Source of the DNA: Cellulomonas sp. ACRRI
GTDB taxonomy: Bacteria; Actinomycetota; Actinomycetes; Actinomycetales; Cellulomonadaceae
DNA length: 46,855 nt
NCBI RefSeq assembly: GCF_022346185.1
Contig: NZ_JAKRMS010000018.1
Span: forward strand, 1-46,855
Direction of reading: 5' to 3'
Numbering within the stretch: the stretch's first letter is position 1; the number at the start of each line of letters is the position of its first letter. The position numbers and the translations under genes are program-made. The notes under the pieces were generated by a model, which did no database searches, had not been told where the DNA came from, and saw nothing but the letters and a program-made list of their open reading frames with translations. Shown here in pieces: positions 13,347-44,233 of this stretch.

Positions 13347-14639
13347 ATGACCCGTCGTACCGTCCGGCGTGCCCTCGTCGCCGCCACCGTCACCACCCTG
13401 GCGCTCGCGCCGCTCACGGCCTGCGGCCGGTCCGACGACACCGGCGGGGGCGGCGGCGCCGCCGAGGCCGGCACCGTCGCCGACGAGGCCACCGGCGAGA
13501 TCGAGATCTGGGCCGCGGCCGGCAACGGCGACGCGCTGCGGACCCTCGGCGAGCAGTTCACCGAGGACAACCCCGAGGCGTCCATCAAGGTCACCGAGGT
13601 CCCGTGGGGCGAGATCATCACGATGAACCAGACCGCCGTCGCCTCCGGCACCGGCCCGGACATCGTGATGACCGGCGCGGACCAGACCGCCTCGGTGATC
13701 GCCATGGGCGGGCTCGCGCCCGTGCCCGACGGCGTGTTCACCGAGGACGACTTCTACCCCGCCGCGGTCGCCTCGGTGACCGGCGAGGACGGCCTGTACT
13801 CGGTGCCGTGGTACGTCGAGACCCGGTTCCTGTTCTACCGCGCCGACCTGGCCGCCGAGCTCGGGTACGACGCCCCGACCACCTGGGCCGAGCTCGAGGA
13901 GCTCAGCGGCGCGCTCGCCTCGCGCCCCGGGGGCGAGTACGGCCTGAGCCTGCCGCGTCCGATCGAGAACCCCGCGCAGGTCATCGTGCCGTTCCTGTCG
14001 CAGGCCGGCGGCTCGGTCACCGACGGCGACGCCTGGACCTTCGACACCCCGGAGTTCGTCGAGGCGCTCGACTTCTACAAGGGCTTCTTCGACCGCGGCG
14101 AGGCGCCGCTGTCCGAGACCGAGGCCACCTTCGAGAACGGCGGCTCCCCGCTGCTGATCTCGGGACCGTGGATGGTCGGCACGTACCAGGACCTGATCGA
14201 CACCGGCGCGGCGCCCGAGGGCTTCACCGAGGACTCCATCGGGTACGTCCCGCTGCCGTCCGGCCCCGCCAACAACGACTCCTACATCGGCGGCGGCAAC
14301 CTCGGCGTGTTCGCGTCCTCGGACAACCAGGACTCCTCCTGGGCCTTCCTGCAGTGGCTGCTCGAGGACGAGCAGCAGAAGACGCTGTTCGACCTCGCGG
14401 GCTCGTTCCCGTCGCGCGTCGAGTCGGCCGAGTACGCGCCGATCGACGACAGCCCGGTGATGTCGGTGCTCAAGGAGCAGATGCCGAACACCGTCGAGAC
14501 CCCGAGCTACCCGTCGTGGTCGCAGATCGCCGAGCAGATCGGCATCTACGCCGAGCGGGTTGCCCACGGCGAGATCACGTCCGAGGACGCGGCGAAGGCG
14601 ATCCAGGACCAGGCCGACCAGATCGGCTTCGGCTGGTGA
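13347..14639 (+). CDS. Carbohydrate ABC transporter solute-binding lipoprotein (CUT1 type)
   Basis: The 430-residue protein has a Tat/Sec-like charged start (MTRRTVRRAL), a hydrophobic core and a lipobox LTAC with Cys26, so it is a membrane-anchored lipoprotein outside the cell. The mature part is a family 1 sugar-binding protein: GEIEIWAAAGNGDALRTL, FTEDNPEASIKV, VPWYVETRFLFYRADLAAEL and LLISGPWMVGTY. The ATG at 13347 has AAGGAGG upstream. It is the first gene of the operon, with a permease overlapping its stop. The GH3 and GH94 genes downstream suggest that it captures beta-glucooligosaccharides, possibly beta-1,2-linked. Confidence 0.93.
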   Translation: MTRRTVRRALVAATVTTLALAPLTACGRSDDTGGGGGAAEAGTVADEATGEIEIWAAAGNGDALRTLGEQFTEDNPEASIKVTEVPWGEIITMNQTAVASGTGPDIVMTGADQTASVIAMGGLAPVPDGVFTEDDFYPAAVASVTGEDGLYSVPWYVETRFLFYRADLAAELGYDAPTTWAELEELSGALASRPGGEYGLSLPRPIENPAQVIVPFLSQAGGSVTDGDAWTFDTPEFVEALDFYKGFFDRGEAPLSETEATFENGGSPLLISGPWMVGTYQDLIDTGAAPEGFTEDSIGYVPLPSGPANNDSYIGGGNLGVFASSDNQDSSWAFLQWLLEDEQQKTLFDLAGSFPSRVESAEYAPIDDSPVMSVLKEQMPNTVETPSYPSWSQIAEQIGIYAERVAHGEITSEDAAKAIQDQADQIGFGW

Positions 14640-15586
14640 CCAGCACCACCACGCAGCGGCGCACGCCGCCCGCGACGTCGCGGCGGCCGGGGAAGTCCGT
14701 GTCCCTGGCCGCCCGGCGGCGCCGGACCGCCCTGATCGCCTGGCTGTTCGCGGCGCCGTTCGTGCTGTCGTTCGGCGTGTTCGGGCTCGTCCCGCTGGTG
14801 AGCTCGTTCGGGATGGCTTTCACCGACCTCCGGGTCAACGACATCCGCACCCCGTTCGCCGTCGACTTCGTCGGACTGTCGAACTTCGCGGAGGTGCTGT
14901 CCGACACGACGTTCCTGCGGGCCCTGCGCAACACGCTGGGCTTCGTGGTGGTCGGCGTGCCGCTCTCGCTGTTCTCGGCGCTGGTCCTCGCGGTCATGCT
15001 GAACGCGCTCGGCCGCCGGGCGGCGACGTTCTTCCGGGTCGGCTACTACACCCCGGTGGTGACGACCATCGTCGCCGTGGCGGTGGTGTGGCGGATCATG
15101 TACCAGCCGAACGGCCTGATCAACTCGCTGCTCGCGGACATCGGCATCGACGGGCCCAACTGGCTCGGCGACACCCGCACCGCGCTGCCCGCGCTGACCC
15201 TCATGGCGGTGTGGCGCAGCATCGGGTCGAGCATGGTCATCTTCCTCGCCGGCCTGCAGGCCATCCCCTCCGACGTCAAGGAGGCGGCGATGATGGACGG
15301 CGCGTCGACCGTCCAGCGGTTCTTCCGCATCACCATCCCGATGATGATGCCGACGATCCTGCTCAACGCGATCCTCACGACCACGGGCTTCATGCAGTTC
15401 TTCGACGAGCCGTTCGTCATGACCAACGGCGGTCCGCTGCAGTCGACGACGTCCATCGCGCTCTACGTGTTCAACCAGTTCCAGTGGGGCAACTACTCCG
15501 TGGGCGCGGCCGGCGCGTACGTGCTGTTCGCGATCATCAGCATCTTCGCCATCATCCAGTTCCGGTTCTTCCGGCAGAGGACATGA
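14636..15586 (+). CDS. ABC transporter permease, MalF type
   Basis: The 316-residue inner-membrane protein has six or so membrane segments, beginning with LIAWLFAAPFVLSFGVFGLV, and the EAA loop KEAAMMDGASTVQRFFRITI that contacts the ATPase. It ends with AAGAYVLFAIISIFAIIQF. It forms the translocation path with the next gene's product. The GTG at 14636 overlaps the stop of the binding protein gene as GTGA, which favours coupled translation. Confidence 0.93.
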   Translation: MTSTTTQRRTPPATSRRPGKSVSLAARRRRTALIAWLFAAPFVLSFGVFGLVPLVSSFGMAFTDLRVNDIRTPFAVDFVGLSNFAEVLSDTTFLRALRNTLGFVVVGVPLSLFSALVLAVMLNALGRRAATFFRVGYYTPVVTTIVAVAVVWRIMYQPNGLINSLLADIGIDGPNWLGDTRTALPALTLMAVWRSIGSSMVIFLAGLQAIPSDVKEAAMMDGASTVQRFFRITIPMMMPTILLNAILTTTGFMQFFDEPFVMTNGGPLQSTTSIALYVFNQFQWGNYSVGAAGAYVLFAIISIFAIIQFRFFRQRT

Positions 15587-16488
15587 CCATGAGCACCTCG
15601 ACCCCCCTCGCGCCGGCGACGACCGCCGTGCCGATCGCGCCGGTCGTCCGGCGCCGCCGCCGGCGGCTCACGCCCGGCCGGATCGCCCTGTTCGCCGTCC
15701 TGACGGTCGGCCTCGCCGGGACGCTGCTGCCGTTCGTCTGGATGATCCTCGGCGCGTTCAAGACCAACGCCGAGATCATGCGCCGGCCCATCACCTGGTG
15801 GCCGCAGGCGCCGACGCTCGACAACTTCCGCGCGTGGTTCTTCGAGTTCGACATGACGCGGTACTTCCTCAACTCCGTGTTCCTGGCCGTCGTGTCGGTG
15901 GCCACCACGCTGCTGTTCTGCTCGATGGTGGGCTGGGCCCTGGCCAAGCTGGAGTTCCCGGGCAAGAAGGTGCTGATCACCGTCGTCCTCGGGACCATGT
16001 TCGTGCCGGGCATCGTGACGCTGATCCCGCAGTTCGTGCTGGTCGCCAACCTCAACATGGTCGGCACCTACTGGGGCATGATCCTGCCCGGCATGGTGGG
16101 CGCGTTCGGCGTCTTCCTCATGCGGCAGTTCATGCTCGAGATCCCCGACTCGCTGCTCGACGCGGCCCGCATCGACGGCGCCGGCGAGTTCCGGATCTTC
16201 GCCCGGATCGTCATGCCGCTGTGCCGCGCGCCGCTCGCGACGCTCGCGATCTTCACGTTCATGGGCTCGTGGAACGGCTTCCTGTGGCCGCTCATCGTGT
16301 CCCAGCGGGACTCGCTGTACACCCTGCCCGTGGCGCTGGCGCTGTACACCAGCCCGACCGGCGACAAGGGCGCCGAGTTCGGCCTCCAGATGGCCGGCTC
16401 GGTCCTCATCATCGTGCCCGTCCTCGCGGTGTTCATCGCCATGCAGAAGCACTTCGTGCAGGGCATCGCCATGACCGGCATCAAGTAG
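15583..16488 (+). CDS. ABC transporter permease, MalG type
   Basis: The 301-residue protein starts with a cytoplasmic basic tail (VVRRRRRRLTPGRIAL) and has about six membrane segments. The EAA loop reads DSLLDAARIDGAGEFRIFAR and a typical MalG-type end, AMQKHFVQGIAMTGIK, is present. It pairs with the MalF-type permease. The ATG at 15583 overlaps the previous stop as ATGA; ATG 15589 is an alternative. No ATPase gene follows, so the transporter probably uses a shared MsiK-like ATPase encoded elsewhere, as is common in actinobacteria. Confidence 0.93.
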   Translation: MTMSTSTPLAPATTAVPIAPVVRRRRRRLTPGRIALFAVLTVGLAGTLLPFVWMILGAFKTNAEIMRRPITWWPQAPTLDNFRAWFFEFDMTRYFLNSVFLAVVSVATTLLFCSMVGWALAKLEFPGKKVLITVVLGTMFVPGIVTLIPQFVLVANLNMVGTYWGMILPGMVGAFGVFLMRQFMLEIPDSLLDAARIDGAGEFRIFARIVMPLCRAPLATLAIFTFMGSWNGFLWPLIVSQRDSLYTLPVALALYTSPTGDKGAEFGLQMAGSVLIIVPVLAVFIAMQKHFVQGIAMTGIK

Positions 16489-16495
16489 GAGCACC

Positions 16496-18736
16496 GTGGA
16501 CTACCTGGACCCCGCCCTGCCCGTCGCCGACCGCGTCGCCGACCTGCTCGCGCGCATGACGCTCGCGGAGAAGGTCGGGCAGATGATGCAGCTGTCGGCC
16601 CCGGACGGCCTGAAGGAGCAGGTGCTGGACAAGCACGTCGGCTCGGTCCTGCACGCCTCGCCGGAGCTGATCCTCGAGGCGCACGACCTGACCGAGCAGA
16701 CCCGGCTGCGCATCCCGCTGCTGATCGGCGAGGACGCCATCCACGGGCACTCGTTCTGCGACGGCGCGACCATCTTCCCGACCCAGCTCGGCATGGCGGC
16801 CACCTGGTCGCCCGACCTGGTGGAGCGGATGGCCCGGGCCACCGCGGTCGAGGCCGCGGCGACCGGCCTGCACTGGACCTTCTCCCCCGTGCTCTGCGTC
16901 GCCCGCGACCTGCGCTGGGGGCGCGTGAACGAGACGTTCGGCGAGGACCCGTTCCTCATCGGCGAGCTCGCCAGCGCGGCCGTCCGCGGGTATCAGGGGA
17001 ACGGCCTGGCCGACCCCACGGCGGTGCTCGCGACCGCGAAGCACTTCGCGGGGTACTCGGAGACCCAGGGCGGCCGGGACGCGTCCGAGGCGGACCTGTC
17101 GCCGCGGAAGCTGCGGTCGTGGTTCCTCCCGCCGTTCGAGCGGGTGGCGCGCGAGGGCTGCGGCACGTTCATGCTCGGGTACCAGACCATCGACGGCGTC
17201 CCGATCACCGTCAACGACTGGCTGCTCACCGACGTGCTGCGCGGCGAGTGGGGCTACACGGGCATGCTCGTCACCGACTGGGACAACGTCGGGCGCATGG
17301 TGTGGGAGCAGCAGGTGCAGCCCGACCACGTGCACGCGTCCGCCGCGGCGGTCCGGGCCGGCAACGACATGATCATGACGACCGCCGGGTTCTTCGAGGG
17401 CGCGCAGGAGGCGGTGGCCCGCGGGCTGATCGCCGAGTCCGACCTCGACGCCGCGGTGTCCCGGATCCTGACGCTGAAGTTCCAGCTCGGGCTGTTCGAG
17501 GACCGCCGCCGGCCCGACCTCGCGACCATGGGCGCCGTCATCGGCTCGCACCAGGACCTCAACCTGGAGCTCACCCGGCGGTCGCTGGTGCTGCTGCGGA
17601 ACACCGGCGTGCTGCCGCTCGACGGCGACCGCCCCCGGACGGTCGCCGTGGTGGGCCCGCTGGCCGACGACCCGCAGACCCAGCTCGGCGACTGGGCCGG
17701 CTCCTCCGGCCAGGTCGGCCACATGGCGCACGGGCAGCCGCGGGCCATGATCACCACGGTGCTGGACGGGCTCCGCGACGGGGTGCCGGACGGCTGGACC
17801 GTCACGTACTCCCCCGGTGCCGAGATCCTCACGCACGAGGACGACCCCGAGGGACCCTTCTTCCCCGACGGCCAGCCCCGTCCGCAGGTCGTCGCCGCCG
17901 CACCGGTGGACCCGGCGCAGCTCGAGGCGGCCGTCGCCGCGGCGCGGGACGCGGACGTCGTGGTGGCCGTGGTCGGCGACCGGATCGAGCTCGTGGGCGA
18001 GGGCACCTCGACCGCGACGCTCGAGCTGCTCGGCGGGCAGATCGCGCTGCTGGACGCCGTCGCGGCGACCGGCACGCCGCTGGTCGTCGTGCTCCAGGCG
18101 TCGAAGCCGATGGTGCTGCCGCCGTCCGCCCTGGGCGCCGACGCGCTCGTGTGGGCCGCCCACCCGGGGATGACCGGGGGGCGGGCGCTGGCGGACCTGC
18201 TGCTCGGGCGCGTCGAGCCGAGCGGCCGGCTGCCGATCTCGTTCGCCCGGCACGTCGGCCAGCAGCCCACCTACTACAACCAGGTGCGCGGGCAGCACGG
18301 GGTCCGGTACGCCGACCTCACGCAGGACCCGGCGTTCGCGTTCGGCGAGGGCCTGTCCTACACCACGGTCGAGTACGCCGACCTCGCCGTCGACACCCCG
18401 GAGGTCACCGCGGGCGACGTGGTGCGCGCCCACGTGACGGTCACGAACACCGGTGCGCGGCCCGTGCTGGAGACCGTGCAGGTGTACGTCCGGGACCTGG
18501 TCACGTCCGCGTCCTGGGCCGACCGGGAGCTGAAGGCCTTCACGCAGGTCGAGCTCGCGCCGGGCGGGAGCGCGCGGGTGCCGCTCGCCGTGCCGGCCGC
18601 GGACTGCACGATCGTCGACGCCGCCGGGCGGCGCGTGGTGGAGCCGGGCGGCTTCGAGCTCCTCGTGGGACCGAGCAGCCGGCCCCGGGACCTGCTGCGC
18701 GCGGGGTTCGCGGTGGTCGCCGGGGCCGGGTCGTGA
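16496..18736 (+). CDS. GH3 family beta-glucosidase (cytoplasmic)
   Basis: The 746-residue protein has the three GH3 parts: a (beta/alpha)8 domain (KHFAGYSETQGG and GMLVTDWDNVG, with nucleophile Asp261), an alpha/beta sandwich (VVAVVGDRIELVGEGTS, VVVLQASKPMVLPP), and a C-terminal fibronectin-III-like domain (VRAHVTVTNTGARPVLETVQ). FGEGLSYTT marks the junction before the last. There is no signal peptide, so it acts on imported sugars, releasing glucose (or xylose) from non-reducing ends. The GTG at 16496 has AGGAG upstream, seven bases after the permease stop. The next gene overlaps its end. In the Listeria innocua beta-1,2-glucan locus a GH3 enzyme has the same position relative to an ABC transporter. 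Confidence 0.92.
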   Translation: MDYLDPALPVADRVADLLARMTLAEKVGQMMQLSAPDGLKEQVLDKHVGSVLHASPELILEAHDLTEQTRLRIPLLIGEDAIHGHSFCDGATIFPTQLGMAATWSPDLVERMARATAVEAAATGLHWTFSPVLCVARDLRWGRVNETFGEDPFLIGELASAAVRGYQGNGLADPTAVLATAKHFAGYSETQGGRDASEADLSPRKLRSWFLPPFERVAREGCGTFMLGYQTIDGVPITVNDWLLTDVLRGEWGYTGMLVTDWDNVGRMVWEQQVQPDHVHASAAAVRAGNDMIMTTAGFFEGAQEAVARGLIAESDLDAAVSRILTLKFQLGLFEDRRRPDLATMGAVIGSHQDLNLELTRRSLVLLRNTGVLPLDGDRPRTVAVVGPLADDPQTQLGDWAGSSGQVGHMAHGQPRAMITTVLDGLRDGVPDGWTVTYSPGAEILTHEDDPEGPFFPDGQPRPQVVAAAPVDPAQLEAAVAAARDADVVVAVVGDRIELVGEGTSTATLELLGGQIALLDAVAATGTPLVVVLQASKPMVLPPSALGADALVWAAHPGMTGGRALADLLLGRVEPSGRLPISFARHVGQQPTYYNQVRGQHGVRYADLTQDPAFAFGEGLSYTTVEYADLAVDTPEVTAGDVVRAHVTVTNTGARPVLETVQVYVRDLVTSASWADRELKAFTQVELAPGGSARVPLAVPAADCTIVDAAGRRVVEPGGFELLVGPSSRPRDLLRAGFAVVAGAGS

Positions 18737-37647: not shown

Positions 37648-38232
37648 ATGGTCCGCCGCACGGAGCTCCCGAAGTACACGGTCCCGTCGCTGACGGTCGA
37701 GGACGGCCGGACGGTCGCCGCGATCCTGCAGCAGCGCCTCAACGCGCTCAACGACCTCGCGCTCACGCTCAAGCACATCCACTGGAACGTGACCGGCCCG
37801 CACTTCATCGCGGTGCACGAGATGATCGACCCGCAGGTCGACGCCGTGCGCGCCATGGTCGACCAGATCGCCGAGCGGATCGCCACCCTGGGCGTCGCCC
37901 CGGTGGGCACCCCCGGCGCCCTGGTCCAGGACCGGAGCTGGGACGACTACTCGATCGGCCGGGCGGGTGCGATCGAGCACCTCGGCGCGCTGAACGAGGT
38001 CTACGTCGGCGTCGTCACCGACCACCGCGAGGCCGCCGCCGCGACGGAGGACCTCGACACCGTCACCAACGACCTGCTGGTCGGCCACCTGCACGAGCTG
38101 GAGCTGTTCCACTGGTTCGTGCGGGCGCACCTGGAGAACGCGGGTGGCGAGCTCAGCACCGCCGGCGCCGAGGGCGAGCAGGAGTCGGCGCGCGAGGCCG
38201 GCGCCGCCGCCAAGGACCCGTCGACGGTCTGA
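37648..38232 (+). CDS. dps: Dps-family DNA protection/ferritin-like protein
   Basis: The 194-residue protein has the Dps four-helix bundle and the intersubunit ferroxidase site: LTLKHIHWNVTGPHFIAVHE, then MIDPQVDAVRAMVDQIAERI and LHELELFHWFVRAHLENAG. It should form a dodecamer that oxidises iron with peroxide and shields DNA. The C-terminal tail (EGEQESAREAGAAAKD) is longer than usual and not basic. The ATG at 37648 has AAGGAGG upstream. Two hairpins follow the stop. It is near repair genes but transcribed alone. Confidence 0.93.
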   Translation: MVRRTELPKYTVPSLTVEDGRTVAAILQQRLNALNDLALTLKHIHWNVTGPHFIAVHEMIDPQVDAVRAMVDQIAERIATLGVAPVGTPGALVQDRSWDDYSIGRAGAIEHLGALNEVYVGVVTDHREAAAATEDLDTVTNDLLVGHLHELELFHWFVRAHLENAGGELSTAGAEGEQESAREAGAAAKDPSTV

Positions 38233-38245
38233 CGCGCCGCGCCGT

Positions 38246-38269
38246 CGCGCCGGGCACCGACCCGGCGCG
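38246..38269 (+). terminator. First hairpin after dps
   Basis: CGCGCCGGG and CCCGGCGCG form a perfect 9-bp stem with a six-base loop, 13 bases past the dps stop. Confidence 0.55.
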
Positions 38270-38282
38270 GCCCACGGACCGC

Positions 38283-38318
38283 CGAGGCCCCGGTCACCGT
38301 CTGGTGGCCGGGGCCTCG
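38283..38318. terminator. Second, larger hairpin between converging genes
   Basis: A 16-bp stem with one G-T pair (38283-38298 and 38303-38318) lies between dps and the convergent small gene and may stop both transcripts. Confidence 0.75.
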
Positions 38319-38350
38319 TGCTGCGGGCGGCGTCGCCGGGGCCGCGCCGG

Positions 38351-38560
38351 TCAGAGCCGCTCGGGGTCGTCCCAGTCGTCCGACGCCGCGATCGCCTCGT
38401 CGTCCGGCAGCAGCTCGCTGTCCCGCAGGGTGCGCGGCGCCCGGGACGCGTCGCCGCCGGAGCGCACGTCGGTGGCGCGCAGCTCGGCCTCGGAGGGCAG
38501 CGCCTCGGCGCGGTGGTCGGCGGCGGTGTCGGAGGTGAGGTCACGCGGGCGGGTCGTCAT
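38351..38560 (-). CDS. Small acidic hypothetical protein
   Basis: This 69-residue protein starts MTTRPRDLTSDTAADHRAEA and ends DSELLPDDEAIAASDDWDDP plus ERL. It is hydrophilic and acidic with no membrane segment or Cys. I do not recognise a family. The ATG at 38560 has a weak GAGG site upstream and a TACAAC box six bases before it. It lies between a terminator and the downstream end of the membrane-protein gene on the same strand. The reading frame, codon use and position support a gene, but without a known relative this remains a guess. Confidence 0.55.
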   Translation of the reverse strand: MTTRPRDLTSDTAADHRAEALPSEAELRATDVRSGGDASRAPRTLRDSELLPDDEAIAASDDWDDPERL

Positions 38561-38637
38561 GCCTCGGTTGTACCGCGTCGGCCCGGCCGCCACCACCCCG
38601 GGGGGCGGGCGCCGGCCCGGCGCGAGGTGCGCGCCCG

Positions 38638-39786
38638 TCAGCCCAGGACCGCCCGCGTCCAGTCCCCGAGGGTCCCGCCCGAGGTCAGCACCACCAGCCA
38701 GCCGATCGCGAGCTGCGCGAGGGCCGCGACCACGATCAGCGCACGCCGGCGCGGACTCGGTGCGCGGGGCACCAGCAGCAGCACGTAGAGCGCGGTCAGC
38801 ACGACCCACGTCTGGCCCGCGGCCTCGCGCAGCCCGAGCCACAGCGACAGGTACAGCCCCACGACCGCGATGCCCGGCGCGATCAACGACCACGGGTCGC
38901 GGACCGCGCGCACCGTGGACGCCACGAGCACGAGCGGCGCGGCCAGCAGCGCCAGGGCGATCTGCCGCAGCGCCGCGACGGCCGACGCCCCGGCGCCACC
39001 GGGGACCCAGCCGGCCGGCGTCGCCGCCTCCATCCCGCCCAGCGGGTCGGCCGAGAACCACCACGACGCGTAGAGCCAGAACCCGACCGCGGCGACGGCC
39101 GGGAACAGCAGCACCGCGACCGTGGCCTCGTTCGCCCGCCAGCCGGACCGGCCCGCGCGGCGGGCGAAGAACGGGGCCACCGCCGCCAGCGTCAGCGCGT
39201 ACAGCCAGGCGCCCGGGTCGAGCATCACGGCGACGCCCAGCGCGATCCCCGCGCGGAAGCCGGCCTCGGTGGACCGCTGCTCGACGAACGCGGCGATGCC
39301 GTCCAGGGCCAGCACGAGCAGCGCCAGCCCGAGCAGGGACACCAGGTCGTTCGACGCCAGGTAGGACAGCGGCGGGGTCAGCACGAGGGTGCCGAGCACG
39401 GCCGCGGTCGCCCAGCCGCCCAGCCCCTCCCGCACGAGCACCGCGGCGAGCCGCTGCAGCGTGAACCCCAGCACCCCGGCGGCCAGCAGGCTCATCGCGA
39501 GCGTGCTGCCGCCGAGCACCGAGGCCAGCGCGGCCGACAGCGGCGGGAACACCTCGGCGATCCAGGCGAGCCCGCTGTCGCCCCACTGCACCAGGGCGCC
39601 GCGCTCGGCGAGCGCCTCGTTGGCCGACGGCACCCAGCCGGCGGCGCGGGAGAGCAGCGCGACGGCGACGAACGGCAGCGCGAGCGCGACCCGCAGGCCC
39701 CAGCGGGCGGCGGGCCGGGCCGGCCAGGTGTCAGCCGCGTACCGCCGCGGGGACGTGCGCGGCAGCGGTGACGCCGGTGAGGCCAT
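38638..39786 (-). CDS. Polytopic membrane protein of the glycosyltransferase module
   Basis: The 382-residue protein has about ten membrane segments, such as VALALPFVAVALLSRAAGWV, STLAMSLLAAGVLGFTLQRL, LLGLALLVLALDGIAAFVEQ and ALLAAPLVLVASTVRAVRDP. The arrangement, with an early soluble loop (SANEALAERGALVQWGDSG) and a row of helices, resembles multi-helix GT-C-like or polymer-handling proteins, but no catalytic motif is certain. Its start (ATG 39786) lies 56 bases inside the end of the MshEN-GT2 gene, so both are made from one message. A joint role in making or exporting a surface polysaccharide is inferred. Confidence 0.75.
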   Translation of the reverse strand: MASPASPLPRTSPRRYAADTWPARPAARWGLRVALALPFVAVALLSRAAGWVPSANEALAERGALVQWGDSGLAWIAEVFPPLSAALASVLGGSTLAMSLLAAGVLGFTLQRLAAVLVREGLGGWATAAVLGTLVLTPPLSYLASNDLVSLLGLALLVLALDGIAAFVEQRSTEAGFRAGIALGVAVMLDPGAWLYALTLAAVAPFFARRAGRSGWRANEATVAVLLFPAVAAVGFWLYASWWFSADPLGGMEAATPAGWVPGGAGASAVAALRQIALALLAAPLVLVASTVRAVRDPWSLIAPGIAVVGLYLSLWLGLREAAGQTWVVLTALYVLLLVPRAPSPRRRALIVVAALAQLAIGWLVVLTSGGTLGDWTRAVLG

Positions 39787-41605
39787 GTGCGGTCTTCTCC
39801 CAGTAGTGCGGCTTCGTGACGAGCTGCCACAGCGCCTTGTACGCGGCGACGGAGTGCAGCAGCCAGTACGCCGGGTTCGCCAGGCCCCACAGGACCAGCC
39901 CGTACCGCCGGCGCTTGAACGCGCCCATCATCGAGACGTAGATCATGAGCGCGCTGCCGACGCCGAGGTTGAACAGCGACAGCCAGAGAACCCAGCCGGG
40001 GAACAGGAACGACAGCTGGTGCGGGTCGAGGAACAACGACGCGAGGAACACGGCGTACAGCAGCGGCACCGCGAGGAACGTCGCGGGCGTGCCCCCGACC
40101 AGGAACAGGAACGACAGCGTCTGCCGCAGCCCCGCGACCTGCACGAGCCGGAACGGCTGGCGCAGGTGCACGAGCGTCGTCTGCATGTAGCCCTTGATCC
40201 ACCGGGACCGCTGCCGGACGAAGTTCGGGTACGAGGTGTTCGCCTCCTCGTAGGTCGTCGAGTCGATGACGCCGACCCGCATCCCCTCCGCCGACGCCCG
40301 GATGCCCAGGTCCGCGTCCTCGGTCACGTTGTACGGGTCCCAGCCGCCGAGCCGGCGCAGCCCGCTGACCCGGAAGTGGTTCGACGTGCCGCCGAGCGGG
40401 ATGGCGAGCCGCCCGTACTCCAGGCCGGGCAGCATGTAGTCGAACCAGAAGGAGTACTCGAGCGTGAACATGCGGGTCAGCGCGTTCTCGTCGGCGTTGA
40501 AGTAGTTGAGCGCGGCCTGCACGCAGACCAGCTCCTCCCCGGCCTGCCGGAACGCGAGCACCGCCTTCTTGAGCTGGTCGGGCTCGGGCTTGTCCTCCGC
40601 GTCGTAGATCACCAGGTACTCGCCGGTCGCGAACTCCAGGCCGACGTTGCACGCCTTGGGCTTGGTCTGCGGCGCGCCCGCGGGAACCGTGATGAACCGG
40701 AAGTGGGCGGGCGGGTTCGCCGCCTCCGCGGCGGCGCGGGTCTCGGTGTCGTCCTCCTCGACCAGGATCAGCACCTCGAGCAGGTGCGCGGGGTAGTCGA
40801 GCGCGCCGAGGTTGCCGATGAGGTTCGCGACGATGTTCGCCTCCTTGTACACCGGCACCAGGACCGTGTACCGGGGCAGCTCGTGGTCCGGCAGCGCGGC
40901 CAGCGCCGCGGCGTCGGTGCGGGTCACGTGCTCCATGCGCGCGCCGCGCAGCGAGGCCCAGAACTTGAACCCGGTCCCGACCAGGAACGCCAGGCCGACG
41001 ACCACGGACAGCGTGACGACGACGGCGCGCAGGTCGGCCACCGCGGCGAGCACCACGAGCACGAGCGCGACCACGAGCGCGACCTTCTGCCAGGTGACGA
41101 GCACCGTGCGGGCCGACTGCGCCGGCGAGCGGCCCCACAGCCCCAGGCTCGCCCGGTCGCGCAGGTCGGCGCCGTACCGGTCGAGGACGGCCTGCTGGAA
41201 GTCCCACCGGTCGGCGAGCACCAGGTACGGCTCCTCGCCCAGCGCGGCGGCGATCGCGGCGCGCCGCCCGGGCGTCGGCTCGTCGACCACCGCCACGACC
41301 AGGGTCCCGTCGCCGCGGCGCTCCAGCGGCAGCCACTGCTCCGCGAGCACCCGGCCGACGTCGGCGCCCTCCGCGTCCAGCGCCTCGGTGATCCGGGTCG
41401 GCACCACGTAGGGCAGGCCCCACAGGTCGGCGAGCGCGCGGGTCAGGGACTCCGAGTCGAGGGCGCCGATCGCGATCAGCACCTGGCCGATGTAGGCACC
41501 GGAGTCCGCCGCGACCCGCTCCGCGGCGTCCAGCGTGGCCTTGCTGACCAGGCCCCGGTCGACCAGGTGGTCCCCCACCCGCCGGTCCTGCTGATGTCGC
41601 GCCAC
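39731..41605 (-). CDS. MshEN-domain GT2 glycosyltransferase (probable c-di-GMP-controlled)
   Basis: The 624-residue protein has a T2SSE_N/MshEN-like region at about residues 9-150 with two repeats (RVGDHLVDRGLVSKATLDAA; YIGQVLIAIGALDSESLTRA) and DLWGLPYV. Two membrane helices (about 165-210) follow, then a processive GT2 domain with VLVPVYKEANIV, IYDAEDKPEPD, VTEDADLG and QRSRWIKG, and four C-terminal helices. MshEN domains bind c-di-GMP in MshE and in NfrB-type transferases, so the enzyme may be switched on by that messenger to make an extracellular glycan. GTG 41605 is chosen for its GGGGGAG site; GTG 41635 is possible. Divergent from an EAL gene. Confidence 0.87.
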   Translation of the reverse strand: MARHQQDRRVGDHLVDRGLVSKATLDAAERVAADSGAYIGQVLIAIGALDSESLTRALADLWGLPYVVPTRITEALDAEGADVGRVLAEQWLPLERRGDGTLVVAVVDEPTPGRRAAIAAALGEEPYLVLADRWDFQQAVLDRYGADLRDRASLGLWGRSPAQSARTVLVTWQKVALVVALVLVVLAAVADLRAVVVTLSVVVGLAFLVGTGFKFWASLRGARMEHVTRTDAAALAALPDHELPRYTVLVPVYKEANIVANLIGNLGALDYPAHLLEVLILVEEDDTETRAAAEAANPPAHFRFITVPAGAPQTKPKACNVGLEFATGEYLVIYDAEDKPEPDQLKKAVLAFRQAGEELVCVQAALNYFNADENALTRMFTLEYSFWFDYMLPGLEYGRLAIPLGGTSNHFRVSGLRRLGGWDPYNVTEDADLGIRASAEGMRVGVIDSTTYEEANTSYPNFVRQRSRWIKGYMQTTLVHLRQPFRLVQVAGLRQTLSFLFLVGGTPATFLAVPLLYAVFLASLFLDPHQLSFLFPGWVLWLSLFNLGVGSALMIYVSMMGAFKRRRYGLVLWGLANPAYWLLHSVAAYKALWQLVTKPHYWEKTAHGLTGVTAAAHVPAAVRG

Positions 41606-41633
41606 GCCGCTCCCCCTGTCCTGATCCGCGGCC

Positions 41634-41639
41634 ACGCTA
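41634..41639 (-). promoter_or_regulatory. Possible -10 box of the glycosyltransferase gene
   Basis: The minus strand reads TAGCGT; a start near 41627 would leave a 22-base leader to GTG 41605 and would exclude GTG 41635. Confidence 0.4.
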
Positions 41640-41720
41640 GCCCGCGCGGGCGCCGGGCGCCGCTCCGCACACGCCGACGACCAGGACCTTCAACATCCGC
41701 CCGCACCGGCCGATGAGGAC

Positions 41721-43031
41721 GTGGTGACCGTCCTGTCCGCGCCGGAGCACCCCGGTCGGCTGCCCGTGCCGGAGCTGCTCCGCACCGGCGGCGTGCACTG
41801 CGCCTACCAGCCCGTGGTCGAGCTCGCGACGGGCGACGTGCTCGGTCGCGAGGCCCTGCTGCGGACCCCGGCGGACTCGGGCTGGCGCTCGCCGCTGGAG
41901 GTGCTCGACGCGGCCGAGCAGGCCGGGCTGCTCGGCGAGCTGGAGCGGGCCGCCATGTCGCGCGCCCTGGCGGACGCCGCGGCCGCCGCGGACGGTGCCT
42001 CGCACACGCTGTTCCTCAACATCGAGCCGCGGACCCTGTCCCGGCACCTGCCGCTGGTGCTCGAGACGCTCGCGCAGCGCGGCCCGCAGGTGCGCGTCGT
42101 CGTGGAGATCACCGAGCGCGCACTGGCCCTCGACCCGGCGGGGATGCTCGACGCGGCCGCCCGGCTGCGCGCGGCCGGGTGCGCCATCGCGCTCGACGAC
42201 GTCGGTGCGGTCCCGGAGTCGCTGGCGTTCATCCCCCTGCTGGCGCCCGAGATCATCAAGCTCGACCTGCAGCTGCTCCGCACGCTGGAGGACCCCGAGA
42301 CCATCACGGTCGCGGGGGCCGTCCGGGCGCGCGCGGAGGCCACCGGCGCCCGCGTCGTCGCCGAGGGCATCGAGACCCAGGACGACCTGACCCGGGCGCT
42401 GGTGCTCGGCGCCGACCTCGGGCAGGGCTGGTTCCTCGGGCGGCCGCACCGGACCCTGCCCGCGGGCGAGCGCCACACGGGACGCCTGCCGCGCCCGCAC
42501 GCCCCCGCCGGGGGCGCGGCCACGCCGTTCGAGGTCATCGGCACCCGGCGGGCGGTCCGGCTCGCGCCGAAGCGCCTGCTGCTGCCGCTGTCCCGGACCC
42601 TCGAGGCGGCCGCCGTCGCGCACCGGGTGCCCCCGGTCGTGCTCGGCGCGTTCCAGGACGAGCGGTTCTTCACCGGGCGGTCGGCCCGCCGCTACGAGCG
42701 GCTGGCGCAGGCGCTGCCGTTCGTCGGCGCGCTCGGCACGGGGCTGCCGGCCGTGCTGCCCCCCGCGGTGCGCTGGGCGTCGATCGACCCGGCCGAGCCG
42801 CTCGCGCGGGAGTGGGCGGTGGTCGTGCTGGGCGCGCACGAGTCCGTGGCGCTCGTCGGGCGGGAGATCGACGGCCCGCGGTCCCGGCACTCGGCGGCGG
42901 TGGGCGCGCCCGTCGGGTCGCCCGAGGACGACGAACGCGAGTTCGCGTTCGCGGTCACGCACGACCACGGGCTGGTGGCCGAGGCGGCGCAGAGCCTCCT
43001 GCGGCGGTTCCGGGCGGACCCGGCGGCCTGA
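41721..43031 (+). CDS. EAL-DICT protein (c-di-GMP phosphodiesterase-like)
   Basis: The 436-residue protein has an EAL domain at about residues 20-255: YQPVVELATGDVLGREALL (true EAL), FLNIEPRTL, VEITERAL, LDDVGAVPESLAFI (in place of DDFGTG), KLDLQLL, AEGIETQDDL and QGWFLGRP. The changed DDFGTG loop may weaken activity. Residues from about 270 (FEVIGTRRAVRLAPKRLLLP, WAVVVLGAHESVALVGREID, FAFAVTHDHGLVAEAAQSLL) match a DICT sensory domain, often fused to c-di-GMP proteins and thought to sense light or small molecules. It starts 116 bases from the divergent MshEN-GT2 gene, so it may control that enzyme locally. The start is GTG 41721 or 41724. Confidence 0.87.
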   Translation: MVTVLSAPEHPGRLPVPELLRTGGVHCAYQPVVELATGDVLGREALLRTPADSGWRSPLEVLDAAEQAGLLGELERAAMSRALADAAAAADGASHTLFLNIEPRTLSRHLPLVLETLAQRGPQVRVVVEITERALALDPAGMLDAAARLRAAGCAIALDDVGAVPESLAFIPLLAPEIIKLDLQLLRTLEDPETITVAGAVRARAEATGARVVAEGIETQDDLTRALVLGADLGQGWFLGRPHRTLPAGERHTGRLPRPHAPAGGAATPFEVIGTRRAVRLAPKRLLLPLSRTLEAAAVAHRVPPVVLGAFQDERFFTGRSARRYERLAQALPFVGALGTGLPAVLPPAVRWASIDPAEPLAREWAVVVLGAHESVALVGREIDGPRSRHSAAVGAPVGSPEDDEREFAFAVTHDHGLVAEAAQSLLRRFRADPAA

Positions 43032-43063
43032 CCCGCCGGCGGGCGGGTCCGGGCCGGCACGCC

Positions 43064-43069
43064 TACCGT
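43064..43069 (+). promoter_or_regulatory. -10 box for a leaderless M20 peptidase transcript
   Basis: TACCGT ends six bases before the ATG at 43076, and no ribosome site precedes the ATG. Confidence 0.5.
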
Positions 43070-43075
43070 CGGGGC

Positions 43076-44233
43076 ATGAGGGGCGACGCCGCGGCCCTGG
43101 CCGGGCTCGACGAGGCGGCCCGGCGCCGGCTGCCCGCGGACGCCGGGCGCCTGGAGCGGTACGTGCGCCAGGAGACCCCCACCGGGGCCGTCGACGCGCT
43201 CGACGCGCTGGCGGACCTCGTGGTGGCGGACGCCCGGGCGGCCGGATTCCGCGGCGGGCGGGTGCCGACCACCGACCCGGCGTCCGGGGACGCCGTCGCG
43301 CTCGACCTGCCCGGGCGCGGCCCCCGCGCCGGGGACGCGCCCGCGCTGCTGCTGGCCCACCACGACACCGTGCACGCCGTCGGCGCCGTCCCGGTCCGCC
43401 GGGAGGACGGGGTCCTGCACGGGCCGGGCACCTACGACATGAAGGGCGGGATCGTCGTCGCCCTCGCGGCCGCGGAGCTGCTGCAGGACGCCGGACTCGG
43501 CCACCGCCCCGTCCGGCTGCTGGTCACGCCCGACGAGGAGGTGGGCTCCCCGGCCACCAGCGGGCTGATCCGGGACGCCGCCGCCGGCGCCGCGTACGCG
43601 CTCGGCCTGGAGGCGCCCGGCGCGCACGGGGGGCTGAAGACGGCGCGGCGCGGGTCCACGCGGCTGCGGCTGCACGTCACCGGCCAGGCCGCGCACGCGG
43701 CGGTCGACCCCGGCGCGGGCGTGTCCGCGACCGAGGAGCTGGTCGACCAGCTGCTCGCGGCCCGGCGGTTCCTCGCCGGCCACCCGTCGGTGCTCGCCAA
43801 CGTGGGCGTCCTGGCCGACGGCACCCGCACGAACGTCGTCGCCGAGCACGCCCGCGCCGACCTGGGCCTCCGGTTCGTCACCGGGGCGAGCGAGCGGGCC
43901 GTGCTGCGGCACCTGACCGACCCGGAGCCGGTGCGCAGCGGCGCCGAGGTGCGCGCCGAGGTGCTGTCCCGCAGGCCCGCCTGGGAGCCCGGAGCGGCGT
44001 CGGCGGGGCTGCTCGCCGCGGTGACCGCGGCCGCGGCGCGGGTGGGGCAGGAGGTCACGGGGGCGCCCGCGCCCGGGGCGGCCGACACGAACCTCACGGG
44101 CGCGGCCGGGCTGCCCACGCTCGACGGGTTCGGCCCGGGCGGCGGCGGGGCCCACGCGGCGACGGAGCACGTGCGGCTGCCCACGGTGGCGGCGCGGGCG
44201 GTGCTGCTCGCCGCCACCCTGCACGGGGTCTGA
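43076..44233 (+). CDS. M20-family metallopeptidase/deacylase
   Basis: The 385-residue protein has the M20 zinc site: LLLAHHDTVHAVG (His, Asp), GPGTYDMKGG (bridging Asp), TPDEEVGSPATSG (Glu pair), LGLEAPGA and, near the end, GGGGAHAATEHV with the last His. A dimerisation domain lies between (LRLHVTGQAAHAAVDPGAG). This resembles glutamate carboxypeptidase-type or ArgE/DapE-like enzymes that cleave amide bonds in small peptides or N-acyl amino acids. The ATG at 43076 is likely leaderless. It begins 45 bases after the EAL gene but has its own promoter box. Confidence 0.9.
   Translation: MRGDAAALAGLDEAARRRLPADAGRLERYVRQETPTGAVDALDALADLVVADARAAGFRGGRVPTTDPASGDAVALDLPGRGPRAGDAPALLLAHHDTVHAVGAVPVRREDGVLHGPGTYDMKGGIVVALAAAELLQDAGLGHRPVRLLVTPDEEVGSPATSGLIRDAAAGAAYALGLEAPGAHGGLKTARRGSTRLRLHVTGQAAHAAVDPGAGVSATEELVDQLLAARRFLAGHPSVLANVGVLADGTRTNVVAEHARADLGLRFVTGASERAVLRHLTDPEPVRSGAEVRAEVLSRRPAWEPGAASAGLLAAVTAAAARVGQEVTGAPAPGAADTNLTGAAGLPTLDGFGPGGGGAHAATEHVRLPTVAARAVLLAATLHGV

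Follow-up and report, generated by a model that had tools for sequence, protein, structure and literature searches.

A conserved glycosyltransferase and membrane-protein gene pair with a partly eroded MshEN-derived module in Cellulomonas

Introduction

The c-di-GMP-sensing MshEN module, as found in MshE and PilB-type ATPases, is a 53-residue double motif. According to the accessible part of PMC5013675, changing any single hydrophobic contact of MshE lowers its affinity >10-fold, and changes to Arg9, Asp12 or Gln32 shift affinity by at most ~5-fold; the accessible part of the discussion in that paper calls Arg9 and Gln32 important. The same portions of the source describe XpsE of Xanthomonas as a natural loss of c-di-GMP binding by MshEN, and state that fusion of MshEN to glycosyltransferases can occur. 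One such fusion is Escherichia coli NfrB, a c-di-GMP-activated exopolysaccharide synthase, for which the available portions of PMC8669469 and PMC8669472 describe local signalling with DgcJ. Our literature search found no study of the MshEN-GT2 family in actinobacteria, Chloroflexi or Thermus, and the supplementary tables of PMC5013675 may list members. For Cellulomonas, the accessible part of PMC3544764 reports two GT2 enzymes per species, each at 35–39% to the Agrobacterium curdlan synthase. Here, we describe a locus from Cellulomonas sp. ACRRI that lies in a stretch of 46,855 nucleotides (contig NZ_JAKRMS010000018.1, positions 1 to 46,855), referred to as “the window”. We conclude that it holds a real, conserved pair of GT2 and membrane-protein genes whose family has been little described and whose c-di-GMP module is partly eroded; a local c-di-GMP circuit built around the pair is unproven.

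Organization of the locus

A preliminary description of the window gave a GT2 enzyme with an MshEN-like end, a membrane partner and a divergent EAL-DICT gene. This gene set was confirmed, with each frame lying where it had been placed (Table 1). Within the glycosyltransferase, the MshEN-like module (residues 19–71) is followed by a second part (residues 72–160), membrane helices and the GT2 core. Judged by eye, the true start of the glycosyltransferase is likely the GTG at 41605, which gives 624 aa, and that of the EAL-DICT protein is likely the GTG at 41724. Beyond the membrane partner and the EAL-DICT gene lie frames that resemble, again by eye, Dps and M20 peptidase.

Table 1. Features of the locus, in window positions
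Feature	Position	Strand	Remarks
MshEN-like, processive GT2 with membrane helices	39731..41635	-	634 aa as listed; Pfam/NCBIfam matches
MshEN_N module, 53 residues (glycosyltransferase residues 19-71)	41423..41581	-	two 24-residue half-motifs
GT2 catalytic core, glycosyltransferase residues 251-485	40181..40885	-	DAED 345-348, TED 438-440, QRSRW 475-479
Multi-helix membrane partner	38638..39786	-	frame overlaps end of glycosyltransferase gene
EAL-DICT protein, predicted c-di-GMP phosphodiesterase	41721..43031	+	Pfam EAL and DICT
Short divergent intergenic region	41606..41723	.	between glycosyltransferase and EAL-DICT starts

A consensus scan of positions 38200–43300 found no sigma-70-like promoter, and riboswitch control was rejected, since Rfam gave no match at gathering score across the window. 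Within the divergent intergenic region, a short block around GATGTTGAAGGTCCTGG is well conserved in the closest relatives and resembles no recognised motif. Among named relatives in the matches listed, Cellulosimicrobium cellulans DE0111 comes closest (99%), followed by Cellulomonas hominis (96%) and C. pakistanensis (94%), which marks the window as Cellulomonas-type. Elsewhere in the window, positions 14001–18000 have a GC content of 0.68–0.72 and form a lower-GC stretch within 13347–18736; judged by eye, that region seems to encode a GH3-type glycosidase along with the binding protein and two permeases of a sugar-type ABC transporter, and looks ordinary.

The glycosyltransferase and its family

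The enzyme matches Pfam Glyco_tranf_2_3 at residues 254–482 (E 1.7e-23), and the processive motifs DAED, TED and QRSRW show little or no variation in 44 aligned sequences, which bears out its earlier assignment as a processive GT2. It shares its GT2 core with BcsA/CelA, PgaC/IcaA and TIGR03111 (XrtG-associated) enzymes; each of the 44 aligned family members hits the CelA, TIGR03111 and PgaC/IcaA models with an E of 0.001 or less, and the window protein scores far under the cut-offs of these models. A Pfam scan of this protein gave no match to PilZ. We also presume kinship with XagB. Exosortase-linked glycosylation, at which TIGR03111 and TIGR03766 hint, was rejected, with exosortase absent from all 11 genomes searched.

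Like NfrB, the window protein joins MshEN to a GT2 that has membrane helices and the processive motifs DxD, TED and QxxRW. Unlike NfrB, in which MshEN is C-terminal, it carries MshEN N-terminal to the GT2, and it has an adjoining gene for a multi-helix partner and a partly eroded pocket. The NfrB operon includes the outer-membrane channel NfrA and YbcH; the genes next to the window glycosyltransferase are those for the membrane partner and EAL-DICT. By analogy, the window glycosyltransferase would work most like NfrB, and we do not class it as a proven c-di-GMP receptor.

The family was sampled as the best 80 of at least 574 confirmed relatives, a sample that leans toward close relatives. A relative on a Geobacillus stearothermophilus plasmid (CP128455.1:35232-37106) spans window glycosyltransferase residues 9–621 at 43% identity, and the family therefore also travels on plasmids in Firmicutes. 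GGDEF-like frames (E about 1e-10) flank Thermoflexus-type MshEN-GT2 loci (L077:2609-3757, L082:2032-2925 and L084:136-1095), and these are possible local cyclase-synthase pairs.

The membrane partner

The membrane protein had been described as having ten helices and being coupled to the transferase. Conservation of this partner is borne out: among the best 80 of at least 574 relatives, the partner adjoins the glycosyltransferase on the same strand in 68 loci, with no blastp match in the other 12. The helix count is less firm: a crude hydropathy scan, with clusters merged by hand, gave about eight or nine hydrophobic clusters and no firm ten. In the same best 80 loci, the partner is downstream of the glycosyltransferase in 49 and upstream in 19; automatic placing gave 42 downstream, 9 upstream and 17 “other”, owing to start choice, and the last were assigned by hand (7 downstream, 10 upstream). 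The MshEN_N module is missing in 18 of the 19 partner-upstream loci (e.g., L061, L065, L073, L095 and L103) versus 6 of the 49 partner-downstream loci, counts that are drawn from the best 80 of at least 574 relatives and include the 17 hand-placed loci.

No Pfam or NCBIfam model reaches its cut-off on the window partner, which itself matches no GT-C model, and its sole PDB match is at chance level (E 0.88). Among 52 partner relatives, PMT_2 is found in four (E up to 1, best 0.0026), an LA3751-type match in two and TIGR03766 in one, all of them weak, with unrelated families matching about equally weakly. In C. pakistanensis (L035:7691-8814, also L006), the partner lies in two frames, reflecting a frameshift or a sequencing error, and therefore may be broken there.

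The MshEN-derived module

Descent of the N-terminus from MshEN, as first proposed, is upheld by several matches. While the Pfam MshEN model gives no match to this region and the c-di-GMP motif model NCBIfam NF053729 reaches 29.5 bits, under its cut-off of 38, PRK15489 matches residues 15–145 (E 4e-13), the NfrB model PRK11234 matches residues 11–135 (E 1.3e-5), and phmmer aligns residues 17–116 to residues 7–106 of Vibrio cholerae MshE (5htl; E 1.4e-5). By our own reading of the accessible part of PMC5013675, MshE has 12 contact positions: R9, L10, G11, L25, L29, Q32, R38, L39, G40, L54, L58 and Q61. With V or I scored as L, the window module keeps eight of these (Arg9, Leu10 as V, Gly11, Leu25, Leu39 as I, Gly40, Leu54 and Leu58) and replaces four (L29E, Q32A, R38Y and Q61L). 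The preliminary description had named loss of the nucleotide contacts as counting against c-di-GMP sensing; the loss is thus partial, and the four key glycines (11, 18, 40 and 47) are all present. These glycines are kept in all eight clade copies, among which Leu29 varies (E, Q or A), as does Arg38 (Y, R or Q).

The module is the same double motif as in MshE and PilB-type ATPases, from which it differs in being fused to a GT2 rather than an ATPase and in the four replaced contacts. As in Xanthomonas XpsE/GspE, Leu29, Arg38 and Gln61 are changed; unlike XpsE, which lost them, the window module keeps Gly11, Gly40, Leu54 and Leu58. Six pairings of the window copy with relatives gave dN/dS of 0.05–0.58 for the module versus 0.01–0.17 for the glycosyltransferase core, i.e., the module is under purifying selection that is weaker than that on the core. 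Because the four glycines are kept and selection is purifying, we conclude that the pocket is altered yet maintained, and the module not dead. Binding of c-di-GMP may survive, because changes to Arg9, Asp12 or Gln32 have the modest effects on MshE affinity given above (accessible part of PMC5013675).

The copy from C. triticagri (L036) shares all four replacements with the window copy and scores 41.2 bits by NF053729, over the cut-off; L038 (33.9 bits) and L037 (33.7 bits) are both under it. Elsewhere in the family, scores are 57.7 bits for L062, 55.8 for L074, 61.7 for L075, 59.6 for L057 and 47.9 for L046, and two Microbacteriaceae copies that were tried score 24.4 and 17.3 bits. Of the 44 aligned sequences, L062, L074 and L090, all from other actinobacteria, have all 12 contacts intact, and are better candidates than the window protein for a c-di-GMP-controlled glycan synthase. 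The actinobacterial MshEN-GT2 that the preliminary description had suggested as new is real, but a full set of contacts is found in those other actinobacteria.

Loss of the module across the family

The window genome has 15 GGDEF matches, none of them on the window's contig, 8 matches to the EAL-DICT protein (itself included) and two other MshEN matches, both over the Pfam cut-off; c-di-GMP signalling is therefore well developed in this genome. Among the best 80 of at least 574 relatives, the module is missing in 24, because their match to the window protein begins past residue 60. Homology resumes at about window residues 76–95 in Curtobacterium, Clavibacter and Frondihabitans, and near residue 156 in Rarobacter and Demequina. 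Relocation of MshEN_N to a separate gene where the glycosyltransferase lacks it was rejected, with none found by blastp (E up to 0.01) in the locus stretches of 30 entries, G006 and G011 among them twice. In L101, an MshEN_N remnant may persist, judged by eye.

Among close relatives, G006, G011 and Rarobacter L052 have the glycosyltransferase without the 53-residue module. G006 and G011 lack it despite having 15 GGDEF matches each, so the glycosyltransferase core can do without it. These cases would fit a module that has lost c-di-GMP sensing and serves just to couple or position the glycosyltransferase, for example through a protein contact, with the enzyme being constitutive or transcriptionally controlled. 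However, retention of the four glycines in all eight clade copies, conservation of most hydrophobic contacts and dN/dS below 1 argue against this possibility, which we consider quite unlikely.

In a GGDEF search of 50 genomes, the 14 in which all four glycines are present each have 4 or more matches. Among the other 36, 22 show no match that passes the cut-off and 31 have at most two, with 4, 5, 7, 38 and 58 matches in the remaining five. Module state and GGDEF count are correlated across the 50 genomes (Spearman 0.74), a value confounded by ancestry; the association has one independent pair behind it on starred branches and two on all branches. Across the family, module state (intact, eroded or missing) loosely tracks loss of diguanylate cyclases. 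We do not claim that c-di-GMP loss caused module loss, given the one or two independent events and the exceptions, Demequina L103/L110 and G006/G011. A doubtful but conceivable scenario is that this GT2 family can dispense with MshEN_N as a c-di-GMP input, which first erodes and later disappears; in several members, the MshEN_C-like part after it and the core stay. The Cellulomonas copies would be mid-way, with a pocket that selection maintains but that has been retuned, through Tyr in place of Arg38 and an acidic, amide or small residue in place of Leu29. It would then respond more weakly to c-di-GMP, bind a different ligand or touch the EAL neighbour.

The divergent EAL-DICT gene

The product of the divergent gene had been called phosphodiesterase-like with a DICT sensor, and this description holds. 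Pfam finds EAL (E 4.1e-44) and DICT (E 1.8e-10), and alignment with RocR (3sy8) shows E, N, E, E, D, D, K, E and Q all present at the positions taken as catalytic from work on RocR. The EAL motifs are retained in all eight aligned orthologs; loop 6 departs, reading DDVGAV versus DDFGAG in 3sy8. On these residues, the protein is probably an active c-di-GMP phosphodiesterase.

The EAL-DICT gene is linked to the glycosyltransferase in 5 of the best 80 of at least 574 relatives, some of these loci ending at contig ends. It is beside the glycosyltransferase in five of the six named clade loci (L033-L036 and L038, not L037), and the divergent adjacency is found in six of the seven searched relative genomes with a close EAL-DICT ortholog. 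G017 retains the order ligD-Dps-EAL-DICT-aminotransferase without the glycosyltransferase and partner, and a close glycosyltransferase was not found elsewhere in that genome. In L037, the order Dps-partner-glycosyltransferase-aminotransferase is intact without EAL-DICT, and the genome has no EAL-DICT match over 36% identity. G042, G048 and G057 are genomes with EAL-DICT relatives and no close relative of the window glycosyltransferase. Trees favour neither direction of change for the G017 and L037 arrangements, and rooting by the aminotransferase gene was dropped, its next relatives being 55% identical or less. The pairing is confined to one small clade, with each half also found alone, which speaks against the two being obligatory partners but leaves room for occasional crosstalk.

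These arrangements bear on the local circuit first proposed, in which c-di-GMP bound to MshEN activates the glycosyltransferase, and the EAL-DICT protein removes c-di-GMP locally and so shuts the enzyme off. The divergent adjacency in most clade loci and ortholog-bearing genomes, the retention of EAL motifs and module glycines, and the precedent of DgcJ-NfrB (available portions of PMC8669469 and PMC8669472) are consistent with it. Conversely, G017 has EAL-DICT without the glycosyltransferase and partner, L037 has the reverse, four contacts of the window module are replaced, and the window's contig carries no GGDEF match. A probable phosphodiesterase is thus adjacent, but the pocket is half eroded and linkage is rare in the sampled family. 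Such an on/off circuit is possible and not well supported; we judge it unlikely.

Proposed function and significance

The explanation that we favour, and hold to be slightly on the probable side, is a GT2-partner pair for a surface or secreted glycan, with an MshEN-derived module whose c-di-GMP input has been weakened or retuned and with EAL-DICT as a neighbour. The processive GT2 and the multi-helix partner, perhaps GT-C-like, would form a two-gene unit; we infer both the product and its export. The N-terminus would descend from a c-di-GMP-sensing MshEN module, with contacts intact in some relatives, and in the window clade the module would be retained under selection with its pocket partly eroded. 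Because of this partial erosion, c-di-GMP control has most likely become weaker, been retuned or given way to a different contact, a weakened response being our presumption. The EAL-DICT protein would be a phosphodiesterase, probably active, of the general c-di-GMP network, lying nearby without being a fixed partner. Several observations count against this explanation: the position of EAL-DICT beside the glycosyltransferase in most named clade loci could mean function; L036 passes the motif cut-off despite carrying all four replacements; binding may survive, given the modest effects of changing Arg9, Asp12 or Gln32 in MshE; and the partner may be broken in C. pakistanensis. If the favoured explanation is true, MshEN control of processive glycosyltransferases would reach well beyond E. 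coli NfrB, to actinobacteria, Chloroflexi and Thermus. The family would also be a natural series (intact, eroded and missing) on how an enzyme is kept while its second-messenger input is lost.
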